DNA of 64,000 nt, taken from Clostridium rhizosphaerae (GTDB lineage: Bacteria > Bacillota > Clostridia > Clostridiales > Clostridiaceae). The stretch lies in the NCBI RefSeq assembly GCF_016765585.1, contig NZ_JAESWC010000002.1:930001-994000 (forward strand), given 5' to 3'. The notes below the pieces were generated by a model that saw nothing but the letters and a program-made list of their open reading frames with translations, was not told the DNA's origin and did no database searches. Below are positions 14,718 through 30,274 of the stretch, piece after piece; position 1 is the stretch's first letter; each line of letters starts with the position of its first letter. Made by a program: the position numbers and the translations under genes.

Positions 14718-14838
14718 TTAATTAATGAATCATAGAGAACGGACGACCCCAGGAGGGAAGGTTACTTCTATATAACTATATAAATATTTATATAGTTATA
14801 TAGGTCCGGACTACCAACCGGATCTGTGTTTTTATCTC
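14718..14838 (-). ncRNA. Leader RNA of yjdF, probably the yjdF riboswitch
   Basis: Between the promoter and yjdF lies a ~120-base region unlike ordinary spacer. On the minus strand it has GATCCGGTTGGTAGTCCGG, then a perfect 36-base palindrome (14768-14803), then CCTTCCCTCCTGGGG. The position before a yjdF gene and the GC-rich conserved-looking blocks flanking a variable AT-rich hairpin fit the yjdF motif RNA. I could not check the consensus base by base. Aromatic-ligand sensing is known for the class and inferred here. Confidence 0.75.
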
Positions 14839-14845
14839 TATATAA

Positions 14846-19258: not shown

Positions 19259-20056
19259 TTAAATTTCATATATCTTAATTTTTTCATGCTCTTTACTTAA
19301 AATGCTGTTAGTTGTATATATTTCATTTATTAAATCTGTAGTCAACAACTCACCTTCAAAAATTGTATCTTCACAATGAGTAACAACTAAATACACTTCT
19401 GATGCACCCATAGACTTAAGCTTTGAGGCCGTCAGTACAAAGGTACCTCCTTTTGAACATAAATCATCAACTATTATAGCTTTGAAGCTTTTGCCATTTG
19501 TATCTCCATCAATCTCTAAACTCTTTATGCGTCCTGTTTTAAAATCTCTATCCTTGCTTGCAGTCAGAATTTTGTCATAGTTTATTTGTTTTCCATACCT
19601 CTTTGCAGCACCTGCATCCGGATAAACTAGATATACCTCTTCTTCTGAAGCTTTCAGTTTTTCCAGAAGTTCCTCTGCCAGTGTTTTCGACATATCTATT
19701 ACCTTAACTCTGTCAAGCAAAGCAACAGTTACATCTGAGTGAGGCTCATAAATTGTTACGCTTTCAAAGTTTAAGTTGTTAATTACTTTACATAGATGCT
19801 TTAAGGTAAATACTGTTATACCCTCTGTTCTGTCCATTCTGCTGTAGGGCATATAGGGTAGCTCTAAGCTGCTTTTTACTCCTAGTTCATCTAAATTGCA
19901 TTTTAAAAATATTAAATGAGTTATATCTTCATCACTTTCAAACTTAACTCTAATTTCATTTTTTTCTTCTTTAATATTTAGAGTCTTGCTTTGCATCAAA
20001 GCTTCCCCATTTGGAAACTTCTTAATCTCTACTTTTTCACCATTAAAATAAATCAT
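19259..20056 (-). CDS. Ribose-phosphate pyrophosphokinase homologue (Prs-like)
   Basis: A 265-residue homologue of PRPP synthetase. The PRPP loop AIIVDDLCSKGGTF (~205-218) is intact, as are LPYMPYSRMDRTEG (ATP-site region) and VYPDAGAAKRYG. It is ~45 residues shorter than housekeeping Prs, lacking the N-terminal FSGNA-type start, so it is a specialised paralogue. In this operon it could supply PRPP to NadV; phage NAD-rebuilding clusters have a similar pair in which the Prs-like enzyme acts on ADP-ribose (Adps). AGGAGG six bases before the ATG is the last of four in the repeat array upstream. Confidence 0.85.
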   Translation of the reverse strand: MIYFNGEKVEIKKFPNGEALMQSKTLNIKEEKNEIRVKFESDEDITHLIFLKCNLDELGVKSSLELPYMPYSRMDRTEGITVFTLKHLCKVINNLNFESVTIYEPHSDVTVALLDRVKVIDMSKTLAEELLEKLKASEEEVYLVYPDAGAAKRYGKQINYDKILTASKDRDFKTGRIKSLEIDGDTNGKSFKAIIVDDLCSKGGTFVLTASKLKSMGASEVYLVVTHCEDTIFEGELLTTDLINEIYTTNSILSKEHEKIKIYEI

Positions 20057-20062
20057 CTTTAT

Positions 20063-20393
20063 CCTCCTTTTTGTCGGATCACTGGGTAATTTATGAGTGC
20101 TCGTTCCACTCGCAAATTACCCGCCAAAGTCCATTTAGGACTTTAGCCTCCTTTTTGTCGGATCACTGGGTAATTTATGAGTGCTCGTTCCACTCGCAAA
20201 TTACCCGCCAAAGTCCATTTAGGACTTTAGCCTCCTTTTTGTCGGATCACTGGGTAATTTATGAGCGCTCGTTCCCTTTGGGCACTGGGTAACTTAAAAT
20301 ATTCGCTTTCGCTCACAAGTTACCCGCTAAAGTCTATTTAAGACTTCAGCCTCGCAAATCACCCGCTAAAGTCCATTTAGGACTTTACCTCCT
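20063..20393 (-). repeat. Array of hairpin elements bounded by Shine-Dalgarno sequences
   Basis: AGGAGG occurs (minus strand) at 20388-20393, 20231-20236, 20147-20152 and 20063-20068. Units 20063-20146 and 20147-20230 are identical 84-mers. Each unit reads downstream as AGGAGG, a small hairpin (AAAGTCC/GGACTTT, loop TAAAT), GGCGGG, a long hairpin (GGGTAATTT with AAATTACCC plus inner GAGTG/CACTC), then AGTGATCCGACAAAA and the next AGGAGG. The third interval, 157 bp, looks like one element nested in the loop of another, and its inner stem is GGGTAACTT/AAGTTACCC. Joining the outermost AGGAGG copies would leave a normal spacer. Related copies lie at 28971-29134. Confidence 0.9.
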
Positions 20394-20400
20394 TGTCATA

Positions 20401-28495: not shown

Positions 28496-28990
28496 GTGCT
28501 GGATATAGAGAGGCTTTATAGTGATATAAGCAAGGAACTTTATATATACATCTATAAGCTTTCTGGAAACAAGGATATATCAGAAGAAATTGTTCAGGAG
28601 ACTTTTTTCAGAGCCATGGAGCAAATACTTCTCGGAAACGAAGTACTTAATAAAGCTTGGTTTTATACGGTAGGACGAAACCTTTTCTTTGACTATGTCA
28701 GGAGACAGCACCGGCAGGAGCCCTCTGATAAAATAGAAGAGCTTATTGATAAGTCCAGCACGCCCTCTGACTCTGAGCTTTCAAAATCTATTGATAGGAA
28801 AGATATAGAGGTTGTCCTAAACTCTATGAAGGAGAGCTATAAAAATATTTTAATCCTTAGAGAATTTAAAGAGCTTTCCTACGAAGAAATCGCCAAGTTT
28901 ATGAATATAAGCGTAGGGCAAGTTAAGATAACACTTTTTAGAGCCAGAAAGAATTTTAAAAAAATGTATGAAAGGAGGTTAAAGTCCTAA
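28496..28990 (+). CDS. ECF-family RNA polymerase sigma factor
   Basis: A 164-residue sigma-70 factor with region 2 (~5-75; DISEEIVQETFFRAM, WFYTVGRNLFFDYVRR) and region 4 (~105-160; LILREFKELSYEEIAKFMNISVGQVKITLFRARK). The GTG at 28496 follows AAAGGTGG seven bases upstream and is preferred over TTG 28478. The gene ends inside a hairpin repeat: its last codons and TAA (28988-28990) come from the repeat, giving the tail RRLKS. Without the repeat it would end RRNK with TAA overlapping the ATG of the anti-sigma gene. Confidence 0.93.
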   Translation: MLDIERLYSDISKELYIYIYKLSGNKDISEEIVQETFFRAMEQILLGNEVLNKAWFYTVGRNLFFDYVRRQHRQEPSDKIEELIDKSSTPSDSELSKSIDRKDIEVVLNSMKESYKNILILREFKELSYEEIAKFMNISVGQVKITLFRARKNFKKMYERRLKS

Positions 28991-29134
28991 ATGGACTTTT
29001 ACGGGCAGTCTACGAGCGTGAGCGAGTGAGATTAGACTGCCCCGTGGCGGAGCAAAGCTCTAAATGGACTTTAGCGGGAATCTTGCGAATGGTAGTGAGC
29101 ACTCTAAGATTCCCAGTATTTCGAGTGAAAGGAG
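28971..29134 (+). repeat. Two-unit hairpin element inserted between sigma and anti-sigma genes
   Basis: AAAGGAG occurs at 28971-28977 and 29128-29134, 157 bases apart. Between them are two units of the element seen at 20063-20393: AAAGTCC/GGACTTT small hairpin at 28981, then a long hairpin GGGCAGTCTA/TAGACTGCCC; a second, decayed small hairpin at 29054, then GGGAATCTT/AAGATTCCC. The long stems differ completely from those in the NAD operon but still pair, and orientation relative to transcription is the same. Confidence 0.9.
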
Positions 29135-29143
29135 AAATAAATA

Positions 29144-30274
29144 ATGAAGTGCAGTGATGTTAAAGAAAGCCTCAGTAAATATATTTCCGGAACGTGCAGC
29201 AATGAAGAAAGAGATAAAATATCGAGACACTTGAGCGAATGCCCAGAGTGTATGAAAGAAATGACCGCCTTAGATGAAAACAACCTCAACAACAATGCTA
29301 TAGTACCTAACGATAAAGAAGTAGAAAAAGCTCTAATCAAAGCTAGAAAAAAACTTATAGCTAAAATTTCAATAAAAGTTACAGGAGTTATACTAGCTGC
29401 AGCTTGTATATTATTTTTAGTTGTACCTGGAATATTAAATATGACTAGAATGCTTAACCTTAGCAAATACAGCAGAGCCTTGGTGGATTTAGCCCAATTT
29501 TCACAGCCGGTTAATGTGGGAGGTTACGGAAACTCCTTCAAAGGACTTCAGTTTTATTCTACTACCTTGTCTGCCTTCACATATGAGGAGATAGGCACTA
29601 AGAAAAAACCTTCTGCTCCTATTGAAGCAAAGCTAAGCCTGATAACCGGAAATATGATATATAAGGATTTTAAAGGTCCATCTTTTATTCACCCGAAGGT
29701 TTCTCCAGAAAGTAGTTATCTAGATGAAGCTTCTCCAGAAAATACAAAAATAATATTGACTAAAAATGGCGATAATACTGTAGCTAAGATTAACCTATCG
29801 CTAAGTAAGACTATAGACTTAAATGAAATTGAAAAGCTTCTAAACGGTTATGATGTTAAGATAACCTGGATGGCTGTTGAGTGTGGAGAAGAAAGCTTTA
29901 AGCCTAAAAATATGTCCATGGGACAGAATCAATATATTCAATGGGGCATACCCGGAACACTTTTTATAAGAGAGCCTGATATGCATAGCATTGAGCTTAA
30001 CAAAAAGAATATAAAAGAATATAGTGAAAAAATTATAGAAGAAATGAAGTGGTTAGAAAATAATAAGAAGTATGTTAAAAACGATACAGAACTTATGAAG
30101 GATAACTCTATAAACAACGGAGTAGGCTCAAAGGCAGCCTATGTTGTAAAAAACGGTTTAAAAATTTACGGACTTCAACTCACAGGGCCAACAAAAGAAC
30201 TTTTAAAACTTCAGGATAGTCTTGCTATACGTTTTGAAAATGTTACTGATATAGATTTTTGGTTTTGGAACTAA
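29144..30274 (+). CDS. Anti-sigma factor with zinc-finger and membrane segment
   Basis: A 376-residue partner of the upstream ECF factor. The N-terminus (~1-45) has the anti-sigma zinc motif with Cys3 and HLSECPEC, i.e. the HxxxCxxC element. Residues ~73-98 form one transmembrane helix (VILAAACILFLVVPGIL), and the ~275-residue C-terminal part is outside the membrane as sensor, resembling the Sigma_reg N/C arrangement of B. subtilis YhdM-type regulators. The release signal is unknown. ATG 29144 has AAAGGAG ten bases upstream, from the downstream end of the hairpin element. Confidence 0.85.
   Translation: MKCSDVKESLSKYISGTCSNEERDKISRHLSECPECMKEMTALDENNLNNNAIVPNDKEVEKALIKARKKLIAKISIKVTGVILAAACILFLVVPGILNMTRMLNLSKYSRALVDLAQFSQPVNVGGYGNSFKGLQFYSTTLSAFTYEEIGTKKKPSAPIEAKLSLITGNMIYKDFKGPSFIHPKVSPESSYLDEASPENTKIILTKNGDNTVAKINLSLSKTIDLNEIEKLLNGYDVKITWMAVECGEESFKPKNMSMGQNQYIQWGIPGTLFIREPDMHSIELNKKNIKEYSEKIIEEMKWLENNKKYVKNDTELMKDNSINNGVGSKAAYVVKNGLKIYGLQLTGPTKELLKLQDSLAIRFENVTDIDFWFWN

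Follow-up and report, generated by a model that had tools for sequence, protein, structure and literature searches.

Two-hairpin units of about 80 nucleotides in sense orientation at Shine-Dalgarno sites of Clostridium rhizosphaerae and its relatives, with a tail complementary to the host flank

Four copies of the Shine-Dalgarno (SD) motif AGGAGG, separated by hairpins, precede a phosphoribosyl-synthetase-like gene of Clostridium rhizosphaerae, and the locus raises the question of what kind of sequence lies between them and how it came to occupy a ribosome-binding site. The gene (265 aa, PF14572, positions 19259..20056, minus strand) uses the last SD of the array and lies within an NAD-salvage run with the neighbours NUDIX/NrtR_WHD, Isochorismatase, NAPRTase/NAMPT_N and NAD_synthase. 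The window, i.e. the whole stretch of DNA analysed, comprises 64,000 nucleotides (C12:930001-994000) of the 4.85 Mb genome, here designated G000. The initial annotation of the locus had proposed a mobile or amplifying element whose ends coincide with the ribosome site and which leaves the operon working. Here we present the architecture, genomic placement and insertion sites of the units, together with an assessment of how they may be targeted and moved.

On the minus strand the AGGAGG copies are located at 20063-20068, 20147-20152, 20231-20236 and 20388-20393, with spacings of 84, 84 and 157 nt, which bears out the register with hairpin units first described. Starting from the left AGGAGG, the upstream SD copy (20388..20393), and including the flanking AGGAGG copies, the array consists on this strand of unit A (20231..20393), the outer unit that is interrupted by a nested one, unit B (20147..20236) and unit C (20063..20152), whose 3' AGGAGG serves the gene as its SD. 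The 157-bp member is, as had been noted, an 84-type unit with a second unit nested in the loop of its long hairpin, after GCGAG; this inner unit is placed on the same strand at about 20275..20350, with approximate ends, and was matched by a covariance model at 20273-20355. The two 84-mers formerly called identical were recovered as 84-nt direct repeats with 99% identity in the frame of the repeat search, the sole mismatch being in the spacer. Joining the outermost AGGAGG copies gives AGGAGG-ATAAAG-ATG, the normal spacer that had been expected. The pattern AAAGTCC-N(0-12)-GGACTTT occurs at four sites of the window (20126, 20210, 20368 and 28981) versus 0.00 expected from 100 shuffles, and the 351-nt array region has a folding z of -11.95 relative to 100 dinucleotide shuffles.

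A second array of two units (28973-29135, plus strand) is situated ahead of an anti-sigma-factor-like gene (29144..30274, plus strand, 376 aa, PF13791 and PF13490). Its first unit with the left AGGAGG covers 28973..29052 and its last unit 29048..29135, both on the plus strand, the latter with the tail TTTC at 29119-29122 and the junction GAAA at 29134-29137. Scanning of the whole window with Rfam at the gathering threshold returned only an azaaromatic (yjdF) riboswitch outside the array and no intron family within it. The riboswitch (14723-14845, minus strand, 79.5 bits) is located just upstream of an open reading frame ending at about 14883.

The general layout is GGAG^[G-hairpin 1-long hairpin-tail 4-mer-GACTAAAA-GGAG]^host spacer-ATG, in which ^ marks the junctions. 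Read on the coding strand, the left GGAG is followed by G-yt-AAAGTCC-TAAAT-GGACTTT-ar-C, the long hairpin, AGTG, the tail 4-mer, GACTAAAA or a similar sequence, and GGAG. Units are about 76-90 bp in size; the left motif is GGAG or a variant thereof, and AGGAGG is the commonest left 6-mer (45/91 units). Hairpin 1 has 10 bp and the loop UAAAU. Its constancy had been overstated: the stem varies with compensation (AAAGGTC/GACCTTT, AAAGTGC/GCACTTT, GAAGTCC/GGACTTC), and only the loop UAAAU and the closing C-G pair are nearly invariant. TAAAT is the loop of 69 perfect hairpins with a 7-bp stem and a 5-nt loop in the 1.26 Mb sampled, versus 8 for the next loop type.

The units form a large family in G000. 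The 19-nt hairpin with up to two mismatches has 180 matches in this genome, versus none for a reversed-pattern control, and a covariance model built on 48 simple units (36 from G000, 8 from the congeneric genome G001 and 4 from one further genus) yields at least 151 unit matches. Both hairpins covary. Compensatory changes occur at 13 of the 23 predicted pairs of the 48-unit alignment, and both-side changes affect 122 cells versus a shuffled mean of 36.6, the observed number being reached in 0/500 shuffles; sliding the pairing partners abolishes the signal. Because hairpin 1 and a left end resembling GGAG served to pick the units of the alignment, those columns are biased, but the long hairpin, which shows both-side changes at 7 of 9 pairs, was not used in finding units. 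A pseudoknot between the loop of the long hairpin and the tail was rejected, as 12 of 47 units are fully complementary versus a permutation mean of 14.4.

Several peculiarities of the units were recorded in addition. In L030 and other units the loop of hairpin 1 holds TAA-ATG, which provides a stop for the upstream frame and begins a mini-frame (MDFSG and a stop) about 12 nt past the left SD. In the nested units L062:719-776 and L064:5420-5477 the loop of hairpin 1 reads ATTTA, as if the stem-loop had been flipped and the rest had not. At L059, L064, L069 and L070 (G000) tandem units of 73-75 bp are joined without GGAG, and their tails, GTC-GAA-GAC or GGC-GAA-GCC, are self-complementary over the join.

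Sense insertion of the units at SD sites is close to certain. The discovery stretches comprised C12:1-800000 as a whole and others selected for holding hairpin matches; there 44 of 46 arrays end in sense orientation in an SD, a spacer and an open frame of at least 40 aa or running off the stretch. The 46 arrays are 49 rows minus three non-arrays, namely L046, a hairpin without following CGGG, and L062_719 and L064_5420, opposite-strand readings of ATTTA loops in arrays that the count already includes; the genuine exceptions are L029_5649 and L063_807. A held-out set of 40 further G000 stretches was drawn from model matches without use of start codons, and all 42 array ends with a recognised tail run in sense into an open frame. 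The same holds for G162, a genome of another genus, in which 17/17 array ends precede an open frame. The expectation that further copies would be tied to SD sites was supported by these counts. In C12:1-800000 the heptamers GGAGGAA and GGAGAAA occur 66 times at SDs versus 49 times elsewhere in intergenic DNA, a rough count owing to crude gene calls and uncalled small genes; because these target heptamers are so common outside SDs, the bias of the units goes beyond gene avoidance alone.

Relatives provide the empty sites that had been called for. In G001 single-SD alleles are present at sites that are filled in G000, and vice versa, and the window's own gene is among them: its G001 allele (L202) is an empty single-SD site, ...GTGAGGGGATTATA-ATG, also read as AATTAGTGAGGGGATTATA-ATG. 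Clostridium sp. OS1-26, which belongs to a different genus from G000, is filled where relatives are empty. Its locus L163 reads CAACTTTAGGAG[unit]GAAGCT-ATG, and the empty counterpart in C. magnum (L279, genome G146) reads CAACTTTAGGAG^GAAGCT-ATG; L154/L248, L175/L261 and L173/L259 are filled/empty pairs of the same kind, with an identical whole spacer in L154 and L248. The possibility that the element brings the host flank along was rejected at several TTCC loci, where the empty alleles hold the flank (L163/L279, L154/L248, L175/L261 and L054/L107). SD placement and single-SD empty alleles together support, at the level of sequence comparison, the proposal of a mobile element that enters the ribosome site and would leave the operon working. 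At L030 the unit entered where two genes overlap; the upstream frame closes with ...TTRRHNNE before its stop in the empty G001 allele and with ...TTRRLKS in G000, where the stop is the TAA of the hairpin-1 loop.

Of 55 G000 units, 53 have G next to the left GGAG, and the first G of the unit forms a G-C pair with the hairpin-1 3' arm in 81/91 units; the unit therefore starts with that G, or its ends are positioned further left within GGAG. Next to the right GGAG the base is mostly G where the tail is TTCC and A where it is TTTC. GGAG stands on both sides of the unit, the right copy being either carried by the unit or a duplication of the target. The ends thus fall on the ribosome site as proposed, but the junction is within GGAG and does not take in the whole AGGAGG.

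At the right junction the units show a new feature: the tail, i.e. the 4 nt before GA...AAGGAG, is complementary to the last G of the right GGAG and exactly three host bases. The main pairs are TTCC-GGAA and TTTC-GAAA; ATCC-GGAT (2 cases), CTCC-GGAG (1 in G000, 1 in G162) and CTTC-GAAG (1 in G162) are rare, and CTTC and CTCC tails were also seen at non-matching flanks. In the window array the last unit has the tail ATCC (20076..20079, minus strand), the proposed guide, and the complementary GGAT extends across the right junction at 20061..20064 (minus strand).

This rule was first seen in the G000 discovery set and was then fixed before held-out testing. Perfect matches were found in 31 of the 42 held-out G000 ends versus a permutation mean of 17.1, a value not reached in 10,000 permutations, and in 13/17 ends of G162 versus a mean of 5.0 (0/10,000). 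The discovery set re-scored in the same way gave 29/41 versus 11.8 (0/10,000), and G001 gave 6/9 versus 2.1 (24/10,000). All these counts include tails that the search pattern misreads, such as the window's ATCC taken as CAGT, which were kept and count against the rule. Among the held-out ends TTCC tails stand at GAA in 17/23 cases and TTTC tails at AAA in 14/17, compared with 73 GAA and 28 AAA among 543 background SDs of G000. In OS1-26 permutation is uninformative because a single tail type is present; here 9 of 14 ends are at GAA versus 15/85 in the background. About one quarter of all ends match imperfectly. Extension of the match to a fifth base was rejected, the observed versus expected numbers being 6/6.0, 2/1.9, 1/1.4 and 0/1.3.

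Judged on the sequence evidence, a non-autonomous mobile element that inserts in sense only and picks SD sites by means of a 4-nt tail guide is a somewhat favoured reading. A unit would enter in sense orientation at the GGAG of an SD, with GGAG left on either side. Because GGAG stays on both sides of the unit, the downstream gene retains an SD and its spacer. The tail would pair with G and three host bases and so select GGAG^GAA, GGAG^AAA, GGAG^GAT and similar sites, and an enzyme supplied in trans would recognise the hairpins as its signal. New copies would also target the GGAG of older copies, giving tandem arrays, and may enter the long-hairpin loops of older units, giving nested copies.

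A guide role of the tail 4-mer is probable, with mixed evidence at the TTTC loci, and it has to be weighed against a different origin of the complementarity. Insertion might occur at any GGAG, with the pairing of tail and flank selected later since a third hairpin, composed of the tail 4-mer, a loop with AAAAGGA, and GNNN, would matter in the mRNA, e.g. for access to the SD; copies without a match would be lost or adapt. Such an origin is possible, if rather doubtful. It agrees with L188/L030, where the flank is GC when empty and AA when filled, a shift towards the match beside the unit, with L157, L155 and L193/L067, where GAA is found in the filled and GAG or GAT in the empty allele, and with the prediction that the last unit of the window array pairs its tail with the right-junction bases. 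At TTTC-type loci empty alleles match the tail in only 1 of 8 cases (1/7 without L061_17658, p = 0.27). The TTCC loci of OS1-26 speak against it, as GAA is already present in 7 of 14 empty alleles versus 15/85 in the background (p = 0.006), although loss of non-matching copies would likewise enrich GAA in empties. At L171 and L162 the empty alleles have GAA and the filled allele GAT or GAG, and the G150 and G145 copies at the L163 site (L254 and L271) have tails decayed to TTCA while GGAG^GAAGCT was retained. These three observations favour matching at insertion. At the TTCC loci of G000 and G001 the empties with GAA amount to 3/11 in a strict count (p = 0.046) or 5/11 with two ambiguous G-runs included; the empty-allele counts for these two genomes were made by eye with one allele per locus. 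Target choice is thus considered appreciably likelier than later selection, and we infer that the pairing acts during insertion.

With the model at E <= 0.001 units were detected in 38 of 206 genomes of the family and 19 of its 46 genera, some of them near the limit, and at 1e-4 in 38 of 225 genomes of the order, five of these in a second family; copy numbers per genome from these multi-genome searches are lower bounds. Carriers include C. magnum, C. carboxidivorans, C. drakei, C. thailandense, C. muellerianum, C. lacusfryxellense, Clostridium sp. DSM 17811, Clostridium sp. OS1-26 and one MAG. Viral contigs, plasmids and phages delivered no match by the queries used.

Variants that lack the GGAG tail occur in 5S-like sequence (L144 and L149), in tRNA-Ala-like sequence (L150) and in a repeat of genome G034. 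The tie to AGGAGG is thus not universal, these tail-less variants being located elsewhere. The tail-less units of L149 (G157) and L144 (G018) lie within 5S-like sequence or at its end; the cmscan 5S score of L149 is below the gathering cut-off, and L144 has a truncated 5S start with a whole 5S, found by cmscan, downstream of it, the 5S readings being partly by eye. L150, at the start of G158:C96, has a unit in the variable loop of a sequence that by eye resembles tRNA-Ala(TGC), for which cmscan reported no tRNA; its anticodon arm is found once in its own assembly and is absent from G157. L146 (G212:C707) is a dense array of related units in both orientations, in surroundings that are 5S-like by eye and gave no 5S in cmscan, with a group II intron domain match at 1973-2050. 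In G034 about 20 variant units (AAAGGCC-TAAAT-GGCCTTT, L076-L089) are inside larger dispersed repeats, of which L080 contains a copy without an inserted unit, and at L141 (G034:C13) a unit adjoins a CRISPR repeat array (17 repeat matches, E up to 0.1).

No autonomous copy or unit with an internal gene was present among 101 tails from 1.26 Mb of G000, 0.4 Mb of G001 and 32 named loci. Hairpin 1 lies within 200 nt of the tail in 95 of them; in the other 6, for which 100 nt upstream were inspected, it is degraded or unrecognisable, and that space showed no gene. Tentatively, the structured unit of about 80 nt may represent a new kind of mobile element that combines three properties: sense-only entry into translation-initiation sites with a 4-nt guide that differs by subfamily together with the target, entry of tail-less variants into sequences like 5S rRNA and tRNA genes, and landing in transcribed, unpaired places, by a route through RNA or single-stranded DNA and an enzyme of unrecognised type.

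The units could instead be end derivatives of IS200/IS605 or REP type that are moved by a host Y1 (HUH) transposase on single-stranded DNA, which we regard as unlikely. Subterminal hairpins, the lack of inverted ends, a 4-nt guide and the tetranucleotide GGAG at the left flank resemble IS200/IS605 as characterised in the available part of PMC6006769; G000 has a Y1 protein, as do 47 of 58 relatives, and Y1 genes occur in many carriers. Yet there is no guide 5' of hairpin 1, which begins at the junction, and the guide covaries with G and three host bases instead of the last tetranucleotide of the unit. C. drakei (G007), moreover, has at least 6 units and no Y1 match. PF01797 matches in G000 a single intact Y1 gene of 322 aa and a single fragment; neither the 3.3-kb locus of the former nor the 3.1-kb locus of the latter contains a matching hairpin. 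The intact gene is flanked by GGGACGGTTAACAA inverted repeats, an arrangement like that of the TIR-flanked subclass 2.1 in the same available part of PMC6006769. As an obvious partner it is not supported, with no unit adjoining and inverted repeats of its own.

Insertion via RNA, with the folded RNA being linked to unpaired sites of mRNA or structural RNA and later converted into DNA again, is improbable. The sense-only occurrence in transcribed, unpaired places (SDs, loops of older units, 5S-like and tRNA-like sequence) would suit it, as would the heptamer count, by which gene avoidance alone is insufficient; but no catalytic RNA family was found in the Rfam scan of the window, and a GGAG target combined with selection could yield the sense bias. 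An ordinary cis-regulatory RNA, a riboswitch or leader retained by common descent, is hardly tenable: the conserved structure and loop and the position in 5' leaders would fit, but a copy number of at least 150, the precise empty sites, the nesting of units, a patchy distribution (38/206 genomes) and the lack of an Rfam match at the gathering threshold in the array oppose it.

An element that targets the ribosome-binding site and keeps it usable would be a neat case of low-harm spread, and reading of the target by a 4-nt guide would, if true, constitute a minimal programmable insertion system; the occurrence of guide subfamilies inside one genome makes this idea directly testable. Strong hairpins ahead of scores of clostridial genes, among others in C. 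magnum, C. drakei and C. carboxidivorans, also bear on expression and annotation.

The open-access literature, to which the survey was confined, with subscription papers and preprints outside its scope, delivered no description of the units. Group I and group II introns and IStrons are structured inserts that spare the host gene and involve base pairing with the target. The units share these three traits, but measure only about 80 nt with no catalytic core found, and the gene is spared by keeping its SD. MITEs and other small repeats are, in the available part of PMC2229807, likewise short, non-autonomous, present in many copies and transcribed with host genes; the units differ by an exact SD target, sense-only orientation and the lack of terminal inverted repeats, and the repeat list of the window contains no inverted pair that would link one end of a unit to the other. 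With the ends of IS200/IS605 and their non-autonomous derivatives (PMC6006769, in the part available) the units have in common hairpins close to their ends, a lack of inverted ends, a left tetranucleotide and the logic of a 4-nt guide. They differ in that the guide belongs to the 3' tail and matches G together with three host bases, no guide exists 5' of hairpin 1, and no transposase gene is within or linked to the units; a TTCC tail can pair with GGAG, but the covariation is with G and three flank bases, and the comparison hinges on the position assigned to the right end. REP sequences and BIMEs with their RAYT (TnpA_REP) are, in the available parts of PMC2817692 and PMC6006769, similar as high-copy, gene-free extragenic hairpins with compensated stems, modular arrays and a short conserved motif 5' of the hairpin, and many extragenic copies are found for the units as well (at least 151 in G000). 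On the same partial basis the differences are a GGAG head versus the REP head GT(A/G)G (GTAG), a single orientation, location at SDs and a tail that matches the host; no rayt gene flanked by inverted unit copies is present at the two Y1 loci of G000 (3.3 kb and 3.1 kb). REP sequences, MITEs and IS200/IS605 elements each fail at least one of the defining features that were tested on the units.
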